Positions 52,322 to 63,534 of a DNA stretch of 64,000 nucleotides are shown piece by piece. The number at the start of each line of letters is the position of its first letter. Within the stretch, counting starts at the first letter, position 1. A program made the translations under genes and the position numbers. The notes below the pieces were generated by a model that saw nothing but the letters and a program-made list of their open reading frames with translations, was not told the origin of the DNA and searched no databases. The DNA lies in assembly GCA_002839805.1 (NCBI GenBank), contig PGYT01000008.1:1-64000 (forward strand), written 5' to 3'. Source of the stretch: Ignavibacteriae bacterium HGW-Ignavibacteriae-2. GTDB lineage: Bacteria; Bacteroidota; Ignavibacteria; Ignavibacteriales; Melioribacteraceae.

Positions 52322-53695
52322 ATGGATGTAGAAATATTAGCACGTCTTCAATTTGCGTTCACAATAGCTTTCCATTATATCTATCCGCCTTTAAGCATTG
52401 GACTTGGAGTGCTGCTTGTTGTAATGGAAGGTATGTATTTAAAAACCGGAAACAAAGAATACGAAAGGATGACCAAATTTTGGGTTAAAGTTTTTGCATT
52501 AATTTTTGCAATTGGTGTTGCTACCGGTATAGTTATGGAATTTGAGTTCGGAACCAATTGGGCGACTTACTCCAGGTACGTAGGTGATATTTTTGGCAGT
52601 GCTTTGGCGGCTGAAGGAATATTTGCTTTTTTTCTTGAATCCGGTTTTCTCGCAATTTTAGTTTTCGGATGGAACAAAGTTTCTCCAAAAATTCATTTTC
52701 TTTCCACAATAATGGTCTCCTTTGGCTCAATGCTAAGTGCCGTTTGGATTGTAGTGGCAAATTCGTGGCAGCAGACTCCTGCCGGATATCACATTGTTGG
52801 CGAAGGTTTAAATGCACGGGCGGAAATTACTGACTTCTGGCAAATGGTTTTTAATCCTTCTTCAATGGAAAGATTATCTCACGTACTTTCGGGAGCCTGG
52901 TTAGCCGGAGCCTTTTTTGTGCTTAGTGTCAGCGCTTACTATATAATTAAAAATCGCCATGTGGAAATTTCAAAGAAAGCAGTTAAAATTGCTCTTTCAT
53001 TAGCAATATTCGCCTCACTTTTTCAGTTGTTTACAGGGCATAAAAGTGCAGTTGGAATTAGTGAAAATCAACCGGCAAAACTTGCTGCTTTTGAAGCTCA
53101 TTATGATTCCTCTGCACCGGGAACTTTGTATTTATTTGGCTGGGTAAATGAGGATAAACAAGAAGTTAACTTTGGAATTGGCTTGCCTGGATTTTTAAGC
53201 TATTTAATTTACGGGGATTTTAACACTCCGGTAAAAGGATTGAATTCATTTCCCGAGGATCAACGACCGCCGGTAAATATTGTGTTTCAGACATATCATA
53301 TGATGGTTGCTATTGGAATGGGGCTTATTGGCATAAGTTTATTTGGAGCATTTTTATGGTGGCGCGGAAAATTGTTCGATTATAAATGGTATTTGTACAT
53401 TCTAATGTTTTCTGTTTTGCTTCCTCAAATCGCAAATCAAATAGGTTGGGTTTCTGCTGAAGTTGGAAGACAGCCATGGATTGTTTATGGTTTATTACGC
53501 ACATCGGATGCCCTCTCTAAAACGGTTGATGCTAATCAGATTTTGTTTTCTTTGATACTCTTTATAATTATTTATTTGTTGTTATTTGTTCTGTTTATTT
53601 TTCTGTTAAACGAAAAAATCAAACATGGACCTGATGATTCGGATGATACATCATCTGAATACGCGCACTCAAAACAACTTTTTTCAACAAACTAA
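52322..53695 (+). CDS. cydA: Cytochrome bd oxidase subunit I
   Basis: Haem-bearing subunit of the high-affinity quinol oxidase that works at low oxygen. Haem ligands His18 (IAFHYIYPPLSIG) and His187 (RLSHVLSGAWL) are present, as are the conserved ENQPAKLAAFE and GRQPWIVYGLLRT segments. At 457 residues it has the short quinol loop form. About nine membrane helices are seen. It starts a plus-strand operon with cydB 11 bases after it. Confidence 0.97.
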   Translation: MDVEILARLQFAFTIAFHYIYPPLSIGLGVLLVVMEGMYLKTGNKEYERMTKFWVKVFALIFAIGVATGIVMEFEFGTNWATYSRYVGDIFGSALAAEGIFAFFLESGFLAILVFGWNKVSPKIHFLSTIMVSFGSMLSAVWIVVANSWQQTPAGYHIVGEGLNARAEITDFWQMVFNPSSMERLSHVLSGAWLAGAFFVLSVSAYYIIKNRHVEISKKAVKIALSLAIFASLFQLFTGHKSAVGISENQPAKLAAFEAHYDSSAPGTLYLFGWVNEDKQEVNFGIGLPGFLSYLIYGDFNTPVKGLNSFPEDQRPPVNIVFQTYHMMVAIGMGLIGISLFGAFLWWRGKLFDYKWYLYILMFSVLLPQIANQIGWVSAEVGRQPWIVYGLLRTSDALSKTVDANQILFSLILFIIIYLLLFVLFIFLLNEKIKHGPDDSDDTSSEYAHSKQLFSTN

Positions 53696-53706
53696 TAGTA
53701 GCGAAA

Positions 53707-54735
53707 ATGGAATTCACATTCGATTTAAATACAATTTGGTTTATACTTATCGGAGTTTTACTAACTGGTTATGCTTTCCTCGATGGTTTCGATCTGGGAG
53801 TTGGCGCGATTCATCTTTTTATTAAAGGTGATAACAATCGCAGAATTTCAATAAATGCAATTGGTCCGGTTTGGGATGGAAATGAAGTTTGGCTCGTAAC
53901 CGGCGGCGGAGCCTTGTTTGCGGCATTCCCTCATGTTTACGCTACGGTTTTCTCAGGATTTTATAATGCTTTTATGCTTCTCATTTTTATGCTTATTTTT
54001 CGTGCTGTCGCTATAGAATTTAGAAGTAAACAACCGATGCAGTGGTGGCGAAATATGTGGGATAGGGCGTTCAGCATTTCGAGTATATTAATCGCTTTTT
54101 TAATGGGAGTTTCAATCGGTAATATTATTACAGGTGTACCAATTGGACCTGACAAAGAATTTGCAGGTACGTTTCTCGGAATGTTAACTCCTTACACTAT
54201 TATGGTTGGAATTACAACTGTGGCTCTGTTTATGATGCACGGCTCGATTTATCTTACTATGAAAACCGAGGGTGATTTGCACGAGACCATTAGAACCTGG
54301 GTAAATAATGCGATAATATTTTTTGTGATAATGTATACAACAACTACCATGGCGACACTTATTTATTACCCAAATATGACAAAACATTTTGTGGAAAATC
54401 CGGGATTATTTATTATAGCAATCTTGAATATGCTAGCGATAGCCAATATACCAAGAGTGATTCAGCGCAGAAAAGATTTTTTTGCTTTCCTCTCCTCGGG
54501 CGCAGTAATAGCATCTCTGCTTGTTTTATTCGCAATAGGTATATTTCCAAATTTGGTTTTATCAAATCCAAATCCGGAATATAGTTTAAATATATACAAC
54601 GCCGCTTCTTCGCAAAAAACTTTGCAGATAATGCTAACCATTGCAATGATAGGAGTGCCGTTTGTCCTCGCATATACAGTAAGCATATATTGGGTGTTCA
54701 GAGGAAAAGTAAAAATAGATTCTTCAAGTTATTAG
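53707..54735 (+). CDS. cydB: Cytochrome bd oxidase subunit II
   Basis: 342-residue partner of CydA with about eight membrane helices and the family start WFILIGVLLTGYAFLDGFDL, then GPVWDGNEVWLVTGGGALFA. It is needed for assembly and stability of the oxidase. No small CydX-like gene is apparent in the 14-base gap to the next gene, and no cydCD is nearby. Confidence 0.97.
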   Translation: MEFTFDLNTIWFILIGVLLTGYAFLDGFDLGVGAIHLFIKGDNNRRISINAIGPVWDGNEVWLVTGGGALFAAFPHVYATVFSGFYNAFMLLIFMLIFRAVAIEFRSKQPMQWWRNMWDRAFSISSILIAFLMGVSIGNIITGVPIGPDKEFAGTFLGMLTPYTIMVGITTVALFMMHGSIYLTMKTEGDLHETIRTWVNNAIIFFVIMYTTTTMATLIYYPNMTKHFVENPGLFIIAILNMLAIANIPRVIQRRKDFFAFLSSGAVIASLLVLFAIGIFPNLVLSNPNPEYSLNIYNAASSQKTLQIMLTIAMIGVPFVLAYTVSIYWVFRGKVKIDSSSY

Positions 54736-54749
54736 TTGATATATAAGAA

Positions 54750-55397
54750 ATGAATAAATTGTTAAAAAAAGCTCTACTGCTCAGCTTAATTACTATAGTA
54801 TATAATTTGGCTGAAGGTGTCGTTTCAGTATTTTTTGGATTGGAGGATGAAACACTTGCTCTCTTCGGGTTCGGTGCCGATAGTTTTGTGGAAGTGCTAT
54901 CCGGAATAGGAATTTTACATTTGGTATTACGGATGCGTCATTCAAAAGTTGAAATGCGTGATGAGTTTGAAAAAACTGCTCTACGTATAACTGGATTCAG
55001 TTTTTATCTTTTATCGGTTGGACTTGTTTTAGGTGCGTTAATAAATATTATTAATGACTCTGTACCCGAAACGACAATTGTGGGTGTTATAATTTCTTCA
55101 ATATCCCTGCTGACAATGTATTTTCTGATGAATAGTAAATTAAAAGTTGGCAAAGAATTAAATTCCGACGCAATAATAGCTGATGCGAATTGTACTAAAA
55201 CATGTTTCTACTTATCATTTCTTTTGCTCGCTTCAAGTGTATTGTACGAAATTTTTCATATCGGTTATATTGATTCCATTGGATCTCTGGGCATCGCTTA
55301 TTTCGCATTTAATGAAGGCCGTGAAGCTTTTGAAAAAGTAAAAACAGGAAAATTATCCTGCGCCTGTGATGATCACTGCGAATCTAAAACTATTTAG
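54750..55397 (+). CDS. CDF-like cation transporter, membrane domain only
   Basis: A 215-residue protein with about six helices resembling the membrane part of cation diffusion facilitators (LSLITIVYNLAEGVVSVFFG, FGFGADSFVEVLSGIGILHL, and the Asp-containing DAIIADANCTKTCFYLSFLL). It lacks the usual C-terminal cytoplasmic domain and ends with a short metal-binding-like tail rich in Cys and His (CACDDHCESK). Substrate is unknown; heavy-metal or iron export is possible. It follows cydB by 14 bases. Confidence 0.75.
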   Translation: MNKLLKKALLLSLITIVYNLAEGVVSVFFGLEDETLALFGFGADSFVEVLSGIGILHLVLRMRHSKVEMRDEFEKTALRITGFSFYLLSVGLVLGALINIINDSVPETTIVGVIISSISLLTMYFLMNSKLKVGKELNSDAIIADANCTKTCFYLSFLLLASSVLYEIFHIGYIDSIGSLGIAYFAFNEGREAFEKVKTGKLSCACDDHCESKTI

Positions 55398-55524
55398 TGG
55401 CTATACTATCTCTTGCCATAATTCAATTAACTAATTAATAACATTTTTTATTGCTATAAACTATTGGAATATTGACGAACTTCAGTTAACATTTCCTCTT
55501 TAATTTTTTCTATTTCTTACATTT

Positions 55525-57246
55525 ATGGGCTTTATCATGTTTAAACCAAAGTTATTTATAATGTTCAAAGATATTACTCGCAAACAATTTTTTACTGATT
55601 TGGTAGCAGGGGTTTTGGTTGGTATTGTCGCTTTACCTCTGGCAATAGCGTTTGGCATTGCCTCGGGCGTTACTCCGGAAAAAGGAATAATTACAGCGAT
55701 TATCGGAGGATTTATAGTATCCTTCCTTGGAGGTAGCCGTGTTCAAATAGGGGGACCCACCGGTGCTTTTATTGTAATCGTTTATGGAATTGTACAACAG
55801 TACGGTGTTAATGGATTAATGATTGCAACTCTAATGGCCGGGGTAATTCTTATAATTATGGGATTCGCCCAGTTTGGTTCTATGATTAAATTTATTCCAT
55901 ATCCAGTTGTAGTCGGATTTACAAGTGGCATTGCGGTAGTAATTTTTTCAAGTCAGATAAATGATTTCTTCGGTTTATCGATAGATAAAGTACCTGCGGA
56001 TTTTACAGAGAAATGGATAGTATACTTTAAGAATTATAGCACTGTTCATTTGGAAACGTTCTTTATAGGAATGTTATCTCTCTTAATTATAATTTTTTGG
56101 CCGAAAATCTCTCGAAAAATCCCGGGGTCGATAATAGCTATTTTAGTCGCAACTTTTATCGTCCAGTTTTTTCAATTAGATGTGGATACAATTGAATCAC
56201 GATTCGGATCAATCCCTTCCTCTTTTCCATCCCCTTCATTACCGAATATGGATTTGGCTACTATAAGAAATTTAATTTTACCAGCGACTACTATAGCTAT
56301 ACTGGCGGCTATAGAAGCTTTGCTTTCAGCGGTTGTATCAGACGGTATGATAGGCGGGAAACACAGATCAAATATGGAATTAGTTGCGCAGGGAGTCGCC
56401 AATATTTTTTCACCTTTATTCGGTGGAATTCCTGTAACAGGGGCAATAGCCCGAACTGCAACAAATATTAAAAACGGCGGAAGAACACCCATTGCTGGGA
56501 TTGTACACGCTATTACATTGCTTGCAATTATGCTTGCGCTAGGACAATGGGCTAAATTGATTCCTATGGCAACATTAGCAGCGGTGCTTATTATTGTGGC
56601 CTTTAACATGAGTGAATATAAAGTATTCAAACAGTTGTTAAAAAGTCCGCGAAGTGATTTAATTGTTTTGTTAACTACATTCGGATTGACTGTAATTTTT
56701 GATTTAACAATTGCGATAGAAATTGGAATGGTATTGGCAGTAATTTTATTTATGCGAAGAATGTCAATGGTTACCAATATTGGAATAATTACTCAAGAAA
56801 TTAAGGACAAAGATGAAGTTGAAGATCCCAATTCTATCAACTCAAGGTCAGTGCCTGATAATGTAGAAGTTTATGAAATAAATGGACCATTTTTCTTTGG
56901 CGCGGCAACCAAATTTAAAGAAGCAATGAGTACAATAGAGAATCCGCCGAAAGTACTTATTTTAAGAATGCGCAGTGTGCCCGCAATAGATGCGACCGGT
57001 TTAAATTTATTTAGGGAGCTGGTGCATAACTGCCGAAGAGATGGAACACATTTAATTTTATCCGGTGTCCACGCTCAACCACTTTTCGCATTTACGCAAT
57101 ACGGACTTTTGGATGAAATTGGAGAGGAATATATATTCGGAAATATTGATGATTCACTTGATAAAGCAAGAGAACTACTTGGTCTACCAAAAAAAGGAAG
57201 ACCGGGAGATTTTGTTCCTGTTGTTAAACGCGAAATGAAACAATAA
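55525..57246 (+). CDS. SulP-family anion transporter with STAS domain
   Basis: A 573-residue SLC26/SulP transporter: about 10-12 membrane helices ([30 protein letters not shown]-like [33 protein letters not shown]) and a C-terminal STAS domain (about 455-560, [20 protein letters not shown]). Members carry sulfate, bicarbonate or dicarboxylates; none can be chosen here. The start is uncertain: ATGs occur at codons 1, 5 and 13. It is 127 bases after the CDF-like gene. Confidence 0.9.
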
Positions 57247-57526: not shown

Positions 57527-60007
57527 ATGGGATTGATTAAAAAATATTTCGATTGGCTTCAAAAAGACACTCCTTCTGGGCTCGTAGAAAAATATCCCGC
57601 AATTGATAAAAATGGCGAAACTTCCGTAAAAGGAATCTATATTATCGGGGACCTTACAGGTATACCTCTACTAAAGATTGCAGCCGAAAGCGGGAAAAAA
57701 ATAATTGATCACCTTAGCCGAAACGAGCAATTTCTCAAATTGCGCAATAATACTAACCACAATGATGTAAAGGATATAATTATTGTTGGTGCGGGTCCCG
57801 CGGGTATCGCCGCCGGGATTGAATCTCTTAAATATGGATATAAATTCAATATCCTTGAAGCTGCGAAAAAATTTAACACAATAATTAATTTTCCCAAAGC
57901 CAAACCGATTTTAGCCGAACCCATTGAATATAAACAAGAATCGAAGTTAATAATTAAAGATGGAATTAAAGAATCTTTACTCGAGGATCTAAACTCACAA
58001 ATCAAAAAATTTGAACTTCCTATTCAGGAAAATACTGTTGTTGAAAGAATTGAAAAGAAAGAGGATCATTTTGTTATAAGCACTTCTGAAAATGAATATA
58101 AAGCCCTGGTTGTAATTTTGGCAATCGGTAAATCCGGAAACTTCAGGCAGTTAAATGTAAAAGGTGAAACCCTGCCCAAAGTTTTTAACAGATTAATAGA
58201 TCCCGCTGAAGCCATCGGACATAAAGTTTTAATAGTTGGAGGTGGTGACAGCGCTCTTGAAACAGCTATTGCAGTTTCGGATTATGCAGAGTCTGTAACA
58301 ATTTCCTACAGAAAAGATCAGTTTTCCAGAGCAAAAGAAAAAAATCTGAATGAAATAAATTCGCTAAACGTAAAAGGTAAAGTAAAATTACTTTTTAATT
58401 CAAATATAAAAGAAGTTACAGAATCGACCGTTATACTTTCCCAAAATGGGAAAGATATTTCTATTAAAAATTCTCTCGTTTATACAATGATTGGAAAAGA
58501 ATTGCCCACTGATTTTTTAAGGCGCAGCAAAATTAAAATGGAAGGTGAATTATCTATTACTGCAAAACTACAATTTTTACTTCTGATACTTATCGCTGGG
58601 ATAATATATTTCGGAAAAAGTAGTGCCGATTTTTACTCTTATCTGTTCGGGAAAACCGCTTCATGGAACGATATTATTAGCAGGAGTTTATCATTAGAAT
58701 TTTGGATCAAATTTTTAGCGCTGCCGTTAGAGATAATTGATATTATTTTCTCAGATAAATTAGAATTATGGAACTCAGTAAAATATATTAACGGGCTTGT
58801 TGCCTATTTTTCGTTTTTTGCAGCTGTAATACTTGGGATTTATCTTCTTTTAAAATTTATTAAAGATAATAAGCGTCAGTTTAAAACGGACTGGAATACA
58901 TTCAAACATTTATACTTTATTGGCATTGCAATATTTTTTGCGGTAATATTTTTTGGCGGAAGATATTTTGGCATTCAGCTATTGGGTAAGTCTCAATCTT
59001 TTTTTTATACGGGATTATACTCCTTAACTATTTTAATTTTTGGACTACGCCGTATTAAAGTAAACCCAACCAGATATATTAGAATTCAAACCTGGACTCT
59101 AATTTTAATACAGGTTTTTCCTTTATTTATTCTACCTGAATTTATTTTCCCGATGCTTGGTAATGCGGGATTATTAGGTGGAAAAGAAGGATTTATTTTA
59201 ACACAGGTTTTTCCAGGAAACAGTTACTGGCGTTCCTACGGCTTTATACTTGCCTGGCCGTTATTTTTCAGCAATCTTTATGGATCAAATATCACTTCGT
59301 TTTGGCTGGTGTTTAGTTTTTTTCAAACATTCATTATAATTCCATATATAGTTTACCGCTGGGGTAAAGGTGCATATTGCGGATGGATTTGTTCATGCGG
59401 CGCATTAGCTGAAACACTGGGAGATGAATACCGAACATTGGCCATACACGGACCAAAAGCGAAAAAGTTAGAGAATTTAGGTCAGTGGATATTACTTGCT
59501 GCATTTTTAATTACGGGACTAAAACTTGTTAGCATCCTCTATAATGTTTCTGTTCCTATATTAAACGAAAGTATATCTTTAACTGCTGATTTTTTTCAAA
59601 AGTTTTATTACATAGGTATTGATGTTGTTTTTGCAGGCGTGTTGGGTGTTGGTGTATACTTCTTTTTAAGTGGCAGAGTCTGGTGCAGATTCGGATGTCC
59701 GCTTGCCGCTTGGATGCATATTGTAAACAGGTTTTCTCGTTACAGAATATTTGCGGATAAGAAGAAATGTATTTCATGTAACATCTGTACAAAAGTTTGC
59801 CATATGGGAATTGATGTAATGAACTATGCCAATAAAGGAATTCCAATGAACGATATTCAATGTGTTAGATGTTCAGCTTGTATAATAAATTGTCCTACAG
59901 AAGTTTTGAAATTTGGCAGTCTGCCTAATAATGATACTGCAAATAAATTATATACTAAAATTGAAGTGACTGGTTTAGATAAACAGAAATGGACCTCCGG
60001 ACTATAA
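57527..60007 (+). CDS. Membrane flavo-iron-sulfur protein: permuted NAD(P)H/FAD oxidoreductase fused to a NapH/NosR-like polyferredoxin
   Basis: An 826-residue fusion. Residues 1-65 contain a GD motif (KGIYIIGDLTG, 35-45) that normally closes the FAD domain of thioredoxin-reductase-like enzymes. The FAD loop GAGPAG is at 88-93 and the NAD(P) loop GGGDSALE at 238-245. The domain then ends near residue 345 and runs directly into membrane helices, without its own C-terminal GD segment. So the order looks circularly permuted. After about six helices come CGWICSCG (618-625), CRFGC (720-724) and two [4Fe-4S] motifs (748-758, 779-789). It should pass electrons from NAD(P)H through the membrane; the acceptor is unknown. 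The arsenosugar-type genes follow one base later. Confidence 0.85.
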   Translation: MGLIKKYFDWLQKDTPSGLVEKYPAIDKNGETSVKGIYIIGDLTGIPLLKIAAESGKKIIDHLSRNEQFLKLRNNTNHNDVKDIIIVGAGPAGIAAGIESLKYGYKFNILEAAKKFNTIINFPKAKPILAEPIEYKQESKLIIKDGIKESLLEDLNSQIKKFELPIQENTVVERIEKKEDHFVISTSENEYKALVVILAIGKSGNFRQLNVKGETLPKVFNRLIDPAEAIGHKVLIVGGGDSALETAIAVSDYAESVTISYRKDQFSRAKEKNLNEINSLNVKGKVKLLFNSNIKEVTESTVILSQNGKDISIKNSLVYTMIGKELPTDFLRRSKIKMEGELSITAKLQFLLLILIAGIIYFGKSSADFYSYLFGKTASWNDIISRSLSLEFWIKFLALPLEIIDIIFSDKLELWNSVKYINGLVAYFSFFAAVILGIYLLLKFIKDNKRQFKTDWNTFKHLYFIGIAIFFAVIFFGGRYFGIQLLGKSQSFFYTGLYSLTILIFGLRRIKVNPTRYIRIQTWTLILIQVFPLFILPEFIFPMLGNAGLLGGKEGFILTQVFPGNSYWRSYGFILAWPLFFSNLYGSNITSFWLVFSFFQTFIIIPYIVYRWGKGAYCGWICSCGALAETLGDEYRTLAIHGPKAKKLENLGQWILLAAFLITGLKLVSILYNVSVPILNESISLTADFFQKFYYIGIDVVFAGVLGVGVYFFLSGRVWCRFGCPLAAWMHIVNRFSRYRIFADKKKCISCNICTKVCHMGIDVMNYANKGIPMNDIQCVRCSACIINCPTEVLKFGSLPNNDTANKLYTKIEVTGLDKQKWTSGL

Positions 60008-60008
60008 A

Positions 60009-61403
60009 ATGACAGCGATGGGAAAATCAAATATTAAATATTCTATAATAATTCCAACTTTCAACGAAGAATTATTTATTGGAAAAAACATCGCCATACT
60101 AAATGAAATTAAACCAGCTTGTGAAATAATTATCTCCGACGGAGGGAGTACAGATAATACTTTAGAAATTTGCGAAAATTTTGATGTTAAAATTCTCCAT
60201 TCTAATCGCGGACGCGGTGAGCAGTTAAATGAGGGCGCAAAACATGCCTCAGGTGAAATTCTTATATTTTTACACGCGGACAGTTTTTTTTCCGAAAACT
60301 GTTTTGACCAATTAAACATTTTTTTTGAAAGTCCGGAAAATAAAATATGCAGGTTTCTGTTGTTATTTGATATTGATCATTGGATACTTAATACATATCA
60401 CTATTTCTCAAAATTTGATTCCATGTTCACAAGATTTGGGGATTCAAGCATTTGTGTTAGAAAAGATTTTTTTAATTCGCTTAATGGATTTCCCAATTGG
60501 AATTTTATGGAGGATGTTCATTTTTTGAGAGAGGCAAATAAGCTTACTAAAATTGCTGTGTTGCCAGGTTACGTTGAGTCCTCCGCGCGAACATTTACAA
60601 AAAACGGATTAATTAAACAGCAAGTTTCAAGCGGTTTTATGCTGATTAAATATATTCTAGGATTTAGAAAATTTATTTACGAGAATAGCTATTACACAAA
60701 ACAAGTGAATACTAATCGGGCATCTGTAATACTTTTTACAAGATTCCCGACGGAGGGAAAAGTAAAGACAAGGTTGGCCTCAACAGTTGGAAATTATTAT
60801 GCAGCTCTATTTTACAAAATAATTGCTAAAAAAATTATTTCTGATGTTAAATTAGTAAAAAATATATATCAGTATATTTTTTATTCTGAGAAAACTGAAA
60901 GGAATAAAATTAAGAATTGGCTCGGTAGGAATTTCTTTTATCACAACCAAGTGGGCGATGATCTTGGTGAACGAATGAAATTCGCATTCGAAAAAGTTTT
61001 TAGTCACGGTGCGCAAAAAGTTATTATAGTAGGTACCGATATTCCGGAAATTTCGAAACGGGTAATTGAAAATGCAATAGATTTACTTGATACGAATGAT
61101 ACTGTAATTGGCCCTTCTAAAGACGGTGGGTTTTACCTTCTGGGTATGAAAAAATATTATCCCGCATTATTTGATGGAATAAAATATAGTACCGACAGCG
61201 TATTTTCAAAAACAATTGAAAAATCAAAAGGATTGAATCTTAAATTAAGCTTACTACCTGAATTAATGGATATTGATACTGAATCAGATTTAATATCATG
61301 GATCAACTCAGCAGATAACTCGAAGATAAAAAAAGAAGTCGAATTAATTTATAATCTTACTAAAGGAAAGGTAAAAACAAGATGCGCTCATTGTCCGCAA
61401 TAA
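60009..61403 (+). CDS. Fused arsenosugar-type glycosyltransferase (TIGR04283 + DUF2064/TIGR04282)
   Basis: A 464-residue protein joining two families usually encoded separately. Residues 1-225 are a GT2-like domain (IIIPTFNEELFIGKNIAI, SDGGSTDNT, HADSFF metal site near 89-92). Residues 235-440 match DUF2064 nucleotidyl-/glycosyltransferase-like enzymes (ILFTRFPTEGKVKTRLAST, VGTDIPEI, GPSKDGGFYLLGM). Both are recurrent partners of ArsS and are named for arsenosugar biosynthesis, but their exact reactions are not established. It starts one base after the flavo-iron-sulfur gene and overlaps the DUF547 gene by 22 bases. Confidence 0.85.
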   Translation: MTAMGKSNIKYSIIIPTFNEELFIGKNIAILNEIKPACEIIISDGGSTDNTLEICENFDVKILHSNRGRGEQLNEGAKHASGEILIFLHADSFFSENCFDQLNIFFESPENKICRFLLLFDIDHWILNTYHYFSKFDSMFTRFGDSSICVRKDFFNSLNGFPNWNFMEDVHFLREANKLTKIAVLPGYVESSARTFTKNGLIKQQVSSGFMLIKYILGFRKFIYENSYYTKQVNTNRASVILFTRFPTEGKVKTRLASTVGNYYAALFYKIIAKKIISDVKLVKNIYQYIFYSEKTERNKIKNWLGRNFFYHNQVGDDLGERMKFAFEKVFSHGAQKVIIVGTDIPEISKRVIENAIDLLDTNDTVIGPSKDGGFYLLGMKKYYPALFDGIKYSTDSVFSKTIEKSKGLNLKLSLLPELMDIDTESDLISWINSADNSKIKKEVELIYNLTKGKVKTRCAHCPQ

Positions 61404-62146
61404 TGCTTTTAATAATTCTTTATTTTCAGCCGGCAAATGCTCAACAACACAAATTGTTCAGCTCCGTTCTACAAGATTGTGTTTTTAATGGGTTAGTTGA
61501 TTATGATAAATTAAAAAATGATGTTCGTCTTGATGCTTATCTTCATCAGCTTAATAAGACTAATCCGGAAACATTAACGCGTGAAGAACAACTTTCTTTT
61601 TGGATTAATGCCTACAATTCTTTTACACTTAAAGCCATAGTTGATAACTACCCGGTAAAAAGTATAAACGATTTGCATACCGGCGGATTAATTTTGGGGA
61701 GTTTGTTAAAAACAACAATTTGGGATGATGATTTTATTACTATAAATAGTAATAGATATTCATTAAACGATATAGAACATAATATTCTTAGGGAAATATT
61801 TGAAGAACCAAGAATACATTTTGCTATTGTTTGCGCGTCAATAAGCTGCCCGCCGCTGCGAAATGAAGCTTTTGAGGCAAATATTATTAACGAACAACTA
61901 AATGACCAGGCAATATTATTCTTGAATGATGCTTCCAGAAACTTCTTCGATTTAAAAGAAAGAACAGCTCACCTTTCTAAAATATTCGATTGGTTTGATG
62001 AAGACTTTGGGGATTCCGATAAAAAAGTGATGCTTTATATATCCAAGTTTCTTCCCGATGCGATTAAAAAATCAATTTTACGCGAACCGCAAAACTGGAA
62101 TATTAAGTACAAAAGTTATAACTGGAATTTGAATAAAATTAATTAA
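61382..62146 (+). CDS. DUF547 secreted protein
   Basis: A 254-residue protein with a signal peptide (ending PANAQ, about residue 21). It carries the DUF547 signature: WINAYNSFTLKAIVDNYPV, FAIVCASISCPPLRNEAF and DWFDEDFGD. The family often contains a conserved Cys in ASISCPP, seen here. Function is unknown. Although exported, it is translationally overlapped with the glycosyltransferase gene and recurs beside arsenosugar-type genes in other bacteria to my recollection, so a pathway link is inferred. Confidence 0.85.
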   Translation: MRSLSAIMLLIILYFQPANAQQHKLFSSVLQDCVFNGLVDYDKLKNDVRLDAYLHQLNKTNPETLTREEQLSFWINAYNSFTLKAIVDNYPVKSINDLHTGGLILGSLLKTTIWDDDFITINSNRYSLNDIEHNILREIFEEPRIHFAIVCASISCPPLRNEAFEANIINEQLNDQAILFLNDASRNFFDLKERTAHLSKIFDWFDEDFGDSDKKVMLYISKFLPDAIKKSILREPQNWNIKYKSYNWNLNKIN

Positions 62147-62157
62147 AGGAGCTAAAT

Positions 62158-62490
62158 ATGAATTATTATGAATCCAAAGATCTAGGTCGTTTTGCTGAGG
62201 TTGGAAAATTTAAGCCCGATTTAATGAAAAAATTTTTTGACTATTATAATGCGGCCACAAATACCGATGGAGCGCTATCTAAAAGAGAAAAAGCTTTAAT
62301 AGCTTTGGCAATTTCACATTTCAAACAATGCCCTTACTGTATTGAGGCATACACAACTGCGTCTTTAGAAAGCGGAGCTAACCCCGATCAGATGACCGAA
62401 GCCATACATGTTGCGGCATCGATGGCTGCGGGAATGAATTTGGTACATGGTGTTCAAATGCTTAATATATTGGAAAAAAGTGGTGTGTAA
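62158..62490 (+). CDS. Arsenosugar-associated peroxidase-like CMD/AhpD protein
   Basis: A 110-residue carboxymuconolactone-decarboxylase-fold protein. KREKALIALAISHFKQCPYC contains the redox pair Cys-x-x-Cys (CPYC), followed by IEAYTTASLESGANPDQM and a small-residue helix (HVAASMAAGMNLVHGVQML). The family member next to ArsS is described as arsenosugar biosynthesis-associated and peroxidase-like; a thiol redox role on arsenic or sulfur intermediates is inferred. AAAGGAG precedes its start. Confidence 0.88.
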   Translation: MNYYESKDLGRFAEVGKFKPDLMKKFFDYYNAATNTDGALSKREKALIALAISHFKQCPYCIEAYTTASLESGANPDQMTEAIHVAASMAAGMNLVHGVQMLNILEKSGV

Positions 62491-62523: not shown

Positions 62524-63534
62524 ATGAGAGACAACAATTCAGCAATTATTCAAAACGGGAAATATAATTTTCAAGAGAAATTAACTAAAAATTCATTAAG
62601 CCTCCCCCCCTCTTCTATTGAAACTTTACAGGTAAATATAACTCTTAAATGTAACCAGGCCTGTTTACATTGCCATGTGGATTCATCACCAAAACGAACG
62701 GAGCAGATGGAAAAAATCACCGTGGATAAATGCCTTGAAATACTTTCGAATCATAAGGAAATTAAAAATATTGATATCACCGGAGGTGCACCCGAACTTA
62801 ATCCGCATTTTGACTATCTTGTTATAGAAGCGAAAAAGTTGGACAAACACGTAATGGTAAGACACAATTTAACCATTACAATCGATGGCGATCCCACTAC
62901 AGGAGAATCAAAAAAATATTTGCCTGAATTTTATTCTAAGCATTCGGTGGAAGTTATCTCTTCTTTACCTTATTATCAGGAATATTTCACGGATAAGCAG
63001 CGTGGACGAGGTGTGTTTAATAAAAGCATAGATTCATTAAAATTATTAAATGACCAAGGTTACGGCAACGAAAACTCCGATCTAAAACTTGATTTGGTTT
63101 ATAATCCAGCAGGTGCTTTTCTCCCGGCATCTCAGCAATCATTAGAGCAGGATTTTAAAAAAGAATTATGGGAAAAATTCGGACTTAAGTTTAATAACCT
63201 ATACACCATTACTAATATGCCAATTCATAGATTTAGAGAGCAATTGGAAAGACTTGGCAATTATGATGAATATATGGAAAAACTAATAAATGCTTTTAAT
63301 CCCACAGCGGCAAATGGAGTTATGTGCAGGTCATTGTTAAGTGTAAGTTACGACGGCAAATTATTTGATTGTGATTTTAATCAGATGCTGGGAATGCAAA
63401 TATATAATATAGAACCAATGACTGTTTTTAATTTTGATATTGATTTATTATTAAAAAGAAAAATCCGCTTCGATTCACATTGTTTTGGATGCACGGCCGG
63501 CAATGGCAGCAGTTGCGGCGGAGCTACAGTTTAA
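62524..63534 (+). CDS. arsS: Arsenosugar biosynthesis radical SAM enzyme ArsS
   Basis: A 336-residue radical SAM protein. The [4Fe-4S]-SAM motif CNQACLHC (43-50) follows VNITLK and is followed by VDSSPKRTEQM, as in ArsS. IDITGGAPELNPHFD is the SAM-binding GGAPE region. The C-terminal part carries CRSLLSVSYDGKLFDCDFNQ and the Cys-rich end CFGCTAGNGSSCGG, likely for auxiliary iron-sulfur binding. ArsS joins a 5'-deoxyadenosyl unit to dimethylarsenite; the methyltransferase ArsM that should make this substrate is not in the window. AGGAAAGGA precedes the ATG. Confidence 0.92.
   Translation: MRDNNSAIIQNGKYNFQEKLTKNSLSLPPSSIETLQVNITLKCNQACLHCHVDSSPKRTEQMEKITVDKCLEILSNHKEIKNIDITGGAPELNPHFDYLVIEAKKLDKHVMVRHNLTITIDGDPTTGESKKYLPEFYSKHSVEVISSLPYYQEYFTDKQRGRGVFNKSIDSLKLLNDQGYGNENSDLKLDLVYNPAGAFLPASQQSLEQDFKKELWEKFGLKFNNLYTITNMPIHRFREQLERLGNYDEYMEKLINAFNPTAANGVMCRSLLSVSYDGKLFDCDFNQMLGMQIYNIEPMTVFNFDIDLLLKRKIRFDSHCFGCTAGNGSSCGGATV

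Follow-up and report, generated by a model that had tools for sequence, protein, structure and literature searches.

The 826-aa protein encoded at positions 57527..60007 (+) of the window, the whole stretch of 64,000 nucleotides that was analysed, is almost certainly a natural circular permutant of the low-Mr thioredoxin-reductase (TrxR) fold, within its FNR/YpdA branch, and is fused to an eight-helix NapH-like polyferredoxin. Taken as a whole, it is best explained as a permuted NADPH flavoprotein that feeds [4Fe-4S] clusters and a membrane acceptor, a reading to which we give a probability of roughly 0.6. A natural permutation in this well-studied flavoprotein fold would show a soluble NADPH enzyme rewired into a membrane electron-transfer chain. 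The protein belongs to a defined, testable family of many phyla, which is a candidate path for NADPH to feed redox reactions in the membrane; this path would extend to some arsenosugar-type clusters and, via a sister family termed P2, to multihaem cytochrome systems.

The pyridine nucleotide-disulfide oxidoreductase superfamily (PF07992) is built from three elements, a GxGxxG FAD loop, a NAD(P) loop and a closing GD element, in the order FAD, NAD(P), GD. All three are present here, but the GD element comes first: GDLTG is found at residues 41-45 (57647-57661, within KGIYIIGDLTG at residues 35-45), followed by the FAD loop GAGPAG at 88-93 (57788-57805) and the NADP loop GGGDSALE at 238-245 (58238-58261), all on the forward strand. 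The original prediction had described the GD motif ahead of the GAGPAG loop accurately on this ORF. The motif belongs to what is normally the C-terminal element of the FAD domain, here relocated to residues 22-75 (57590..57751, +); this element, made up of a strand, the GD motif and a helix, usually follows the NAD(P) domain and completes the FAD site. The N-terminal half of the FAD domain and the NAD(P) domain then occupy residues 81-345 (57767..58561, +). The membrane helices begin at around residue 344, downstream of the NAD(P) domain, and no replacement GD element is present between that domain and the membrane part.

Profile searches recover the same rearrangement. The Pfam model PF07992 is matched in rotated order, its positions 1-263 by residues 82-348 and its positions 255-291 by residues 22-56; it is the sole Pfam match of the first 79 residues (E 0.0012), and 7 of 14 family members likewise match it with their N-terminal element. 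PF13738 is also matched by the region of residues 81-345. In a PDB sequence search, the first 80 residues alone match the GD segment of glutathione reductase (E 6e-4), with no unrelated hits, while a profile of 14 N-terminal sequences matches 68 PDB chains, of which the 60 listed all belong to the pyridine-nucleotide oxidoreductase superfamily and are matched at the GD segment. Canonical superfamily members encoded in the source organism's own genome are matched by the N-terminal element as well. Among 39 relatives compared with TIGR04018, canonical YpdA proteins over the cut-off reach 311-316 of its 316 positions, whereas both permuted families cover about 264-279. A rotated query gains little against YpdA in the PDB sequence search (93 versus 91 bits) and adds nothing for the permutation, possibly because the YpdA proteins that were read lack GD residues at that place.

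The order is fixed, as the permutation would have it: the GD element precedes the FAD loop in all 73 homologues that could be scored by motif search, and none of the 78 homologues read has anything GD-like downstream of the NAD(P) motif. Since the PDB matches listed for the N-terminal 80 residues are to GD segments and every scorable homologue keeps the order, the arrangement is not a product of chance. That there is no permutation, the N-terminal GD-like stretch being convergent or unrelated and residues 81-345 binding FAD alone, is highly improbable: although the N-terminal element, as a single sequence, reaches modest E-values (0.0006-0.001), all listed matches are to one and the same superfamily segment, every family member keeps the motif, and strand 37-40 has no partner strand inside residues 1-80.

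The AlphaFold model has a mean pLDDT of 85.2 for the whole protein and 91.5 for residues 1-345, and strand 37-40 and helix 49-65 of the relocated element lie in blocks of pLDDT of about 96-97. Residues 1-80 contain no strand besides 37-40, only single bridge residues, so this strand should pair within residues 81-345. A structure prediction had been suggested as a check on the permutation, and the model places the GD strand inside the flavodomain; the unrelated domain in residues 1-80 that would have spoken against the idea did not appear. The best Foldseek match, from an order-preserving alignment, is YpdA/Bdr 7a7b (262 columns, TM 0.66), and an alignment of this length against a 323-residue target is as expected if the target C-terminus stays unmatched under permutation. 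The rotated PF07992 match, the fixed order in homologues and the predicted structure thus uphold the circular permutation that was originally claimed.

The permutant is confirmed to be real and widely spread. A single scan found 336 relatives; the top 80 were retained, and 78 of these were read. The titles of the 80 place the family in at least nine bacterial phyla, and most members are MAGs. They come from Ignavibacteria/Melioribacteraceae, Fibrobacterota/Chitinivibrionales, Lentisphaerota, Planctomycetota (including anammox bacteria), Verrucomicrobiota, Acidobacteriota, Myxococcota, Pseudomonadota, Bacteroidota and candidate phyla. Within the family, R262 and K270 are invariant and R268 is near-invariant, at positions that we take to be the place of the TrxR NADPH-phosphate site. 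Public annotation, where seen, reads 'NAD(P)-binding domain-containing protein', and the family has no name or established function. The literature searched, mostly outside subscription journals, contains no description of the permuted fusion family or of the ~442-aa P2 family.

Residues 83-344 are closest, by sequence and predicted fold, to YpdA/Bdr (bacillithiol disulfide reductase; 7a7b, 7a76; TIGR04018), and both flavodomains comprise FAD and NADPH domains. YpdA/Bdr itself, however, is soluble, has its elements in canonical order, the last one following the NAD(P) domain, and carries neither Fe-S nor membrane parts; at 141.7 bits the 826-aa protein falls short of the curated TIGR04018 cut-off of 339.9 and is not a member of that family. 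No CxxC motif occurs in the flavodomains of 71 homologues, which makes them FNR/YpdA-like and rules out a role as thioredoxin or disulfide reductase. FNR (3ab1, 6gar) similarly has no CxxC and is expected to transfer electrons from NADPH to Fe-S (PMC10294844), but differs in its canonical order and its separate ferredoxin partner.

The C-terminal half of the protein is NapH-like and contains 13 cysteines, all of which are invariant in 71 aligned proteins. AlphaFold and hydropathy agree on eight hydrophobic helices. Helices 1-6, delimited by the AlphaFold helices, hydropathy and loop charges, extend to residue 612 (58562..59362, +) and are followed by a first cysteine motif, C618-x3-C622-S-C624 (59378..59398, +). 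The second, C720-x3-C724-P, comes after helix 8 (59684..59701, +), and both are invariant in 71 homologues. Two [4Fe-4S] motifs, which match Fer4 in Pfam and are also invariant, complete the protein at residues 748-758 (59768..59800, +) and 779-789 (59861..59893, +). The charges of successive loops alternate in a way that puts the Fe-S domain and both CX3C motifs on the cytoplasmic side, together with the flavodomain. Membrane helices, CX3C motifs and two C-terminal [4Fe-4S] motifs are shared with NapH/MauN (TIGR02163), NosR and CcoG/FixG; unlike these proteins, the fusion has a NAD(P)H flavodomain and extra conserved helices at about 480-590. It scores 61.3 bits against the TIGR02163 cut-off of 213, outside NapH/MauN, and of the NapH-type motifs it has both [4Fe-4S] sites together with one CX3CP and one CX3CS, where NapH has two CX3CP. 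Profiles, homologues and predicted structure nevertheless agree with the original view of a fusion to a NapH/NosR-like polyferredoxin with two [4Fe-4S] motifs.

The permuted order, its fixation, the absent redox-active CxxC and the conserved Fe-S cysteines are computed observations; the electron-transfer role is one that we infer. With no CxxC, electrons must leave FAD by another path, and the fused clusters are the obvious one, for which NADPH to Fe-S transfer in TrxR-like FNRs provides a parallel (PMC10294844). NADPH would reduce FAD, bound where the GAGPAG loop meets the relocated GD element, and electrons would then reach a membrane acceptor one by one, by way of both cytoplasmic [4Fe-4S] clusters and the CX3C motifs, which are invariant. 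NADPH is probably the donor: its use over NADH is suggested by the conservation of R262, K270 and R268 and, in several Ignavibacteriota, by neighbouring pentose-phosphate genes. There, genes for G6PDH, 6PGL (6-phosphogluconolactonase), PGI (glucose-6-phosphate isomerase) or transaldolase follow the fusion gene at seven loci, which fits NADPH as donor. The leading candidate for the acceptor is (mena)quinone, as proposed for NapH, whose membrane segments have been put forward as a quinol-reactive site (PMC5928378); by analogy, the membrane helices of the 826-aa protein would contain a putative quinone site, and we put a quinone acceptor at slightly under even odds. Through the permutation, the protein would be attached to the membrane where its FAD and NAD(P) domains join, with the new C-terminus entering the eight-helix module. 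The outcome could be a NADPH:quinone-type oxidoreductase, or an electron supply to a membrane reaction of a glycosyltransferase/DUF547/ArsS gene set. Two features count against this explanation: the first cysteine motif is CX3CS, whereas NapH has CX3CP, and neighbours vary between loci, so that no single pathway is indicated.

In the window, the stop codon of the fusion gene (60005-60007) is separated by one base from the next ORF, confirming the reported spacing. This ORF encodes a TIGR04283 and TIGR04282 glycosyltransferase/CofC-like fusion of 'arsenosugar' type (60009..61403, +) and is followed by a DUF547 protein (61382..62146, +), a TIGR04169 AhpD-like 'arsenosugar biosynthesis-associated peroxidase-like' protein (62158..62490, +) and the radical SAM protein ArsS (62524..63534, +; TIGR04167, 426 bits against a cut-off of 300). 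Upstream, cydA- and cydB-like genes, a CDF-like protein and a SulP transporter occupy 52322-57246. DUF547 is the commonest neighbour of the family, at 22 loci; the papers found on DUF547 deal mostly with plants and offer nothing useful for the fusion family.

These neighbours could mean that the protein serves a glycosyltransferase-based pathway for an envelope glycan or lipid, of which arsS clusters are one variant, acting either in redox-dependent assembly or in the redox chemistry of a lipid or sugar carrier. In Pseudoalteromonas and Alteromonas the gene lies within a run of GT2, GT87 and DUF2064 genes with no arsS, and GT2, GT87 or DUF2064 neighbours recur at many loci, besides the 22 with DUF547. 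Glycosyltransferases are common genes, however, and their recurrence could be background, while several Ignavibacteriota have pentose-phosphate genes as neighbours instead. We consider such a pathway rather unlikely.

Less likely again is a membrane reductase dedicated to an arsenosugar or arsenolipid pathway, which would supply electrons to ArsS or keep dimethylarsenic trivalent. The gene stands one base ahead of arsenosugar-type genes in the window, and arsS adjoins it at 8 of the 80 loci (best 80 of 336 relatives), where a rough uniform model that takes no account of relatedness would predict about 0.1; these eight belong to Ignavibacteriota, Chitinivibrionales, 'Chrysiogenales' and Opitutia. 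A gene cluster typed as ArsM-like methyltransferase is present at three loci. The remaining 72 loci have no arsS, although some of their contigs are short. In a phylum sample of 297 genomes, arsS was found in 121 and the fusion in 10, with both in 7 and the two side by side in 2; 114 genomes have arsS without the fusion and 3 the fusion without arsS (Fisher p 0.057). Homologues thus sit next to arsS in a recurrent minority of loci, in several phyla, and as a general function the 'dedicated electron supply' first proposed for the arsenosugar cluster is not supported, either by the gene neighbourhoods or by co-occurrence across the phylum. The link to arsenosugars depends on the lineage; it is real in places, yet it does not define the family. 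As arsS is associated with the gene far more often than chance would give, and in several phyla, the protein may play a part-time role there; the arsenosugar role itself is unproven. The sole arsM-type gene over the family cut-off in the source genome (C39:31548-32342) lies on a different contig from arsS.

Electrons might also flow in reverse, with quinol or a reduced partner driving NADP+ reduction, or bifurcation, for anabolism. FNR-type enzymes are reversible. In the system to which it belongs, moreover, NapH is believed to oxidise quinol (PMC5928378). Transfer from menaquinol to NADP+ is nevertheless uphill without energy input, no ion-pumping module was recognised, and the neighbours in several Ignavibacteriota make rather than use NADPH, which leaves this direction very doubtful.

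The second permuted family, P2, which the N-terminal profile of the fusion family also matches, comprises proteins of ~442 aa (about 430-450) in which a TM helix and two [4Fe-4S] motifs come first, followed by a GE element and then the FAD and NAD(P) domains. It (e.g. WP_015031197.1, 'NAD(P)-binding domain-containing protein') has no curated family name and shares the permuted order, its GE motif standing ahead of the FAD loop; its ferredoxin is at the N-terminus, whereas the NapH-like module of the fusion family is at the C-terminus. It is an even call whether one ancient permutation of the two-dinucleotide-binding-domain flavoprotein fold founded both membrane-attached NADPH:Fe-S oxidoreductase branches. 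The tree does not recover a single origin and the AU test does not reject one (p 0.28), long branches limiting both. If a single origin is correct, one branch ends in a NapH-like module and the other starts with a membrane-anchored ferredoxin serving giant multihaem cytochromes. P2 genes adjoin multihaem cytochromes in most loci seen (L112-L117, L118-L122, L171-L175 and L124:8995-10317): in five relatives that were read, the neighbours are genes with 20 and 24-61 CXXCH motifs (up to 61 in one gene), and in Emticicia P2 adjoins two cytochrome c3 genes. A conserved membrane protein of ~290 aa, with no Pfam match where tested, is encoded just upstream of P2 (L118:7215-8090; similar ORFs at L119-L122).
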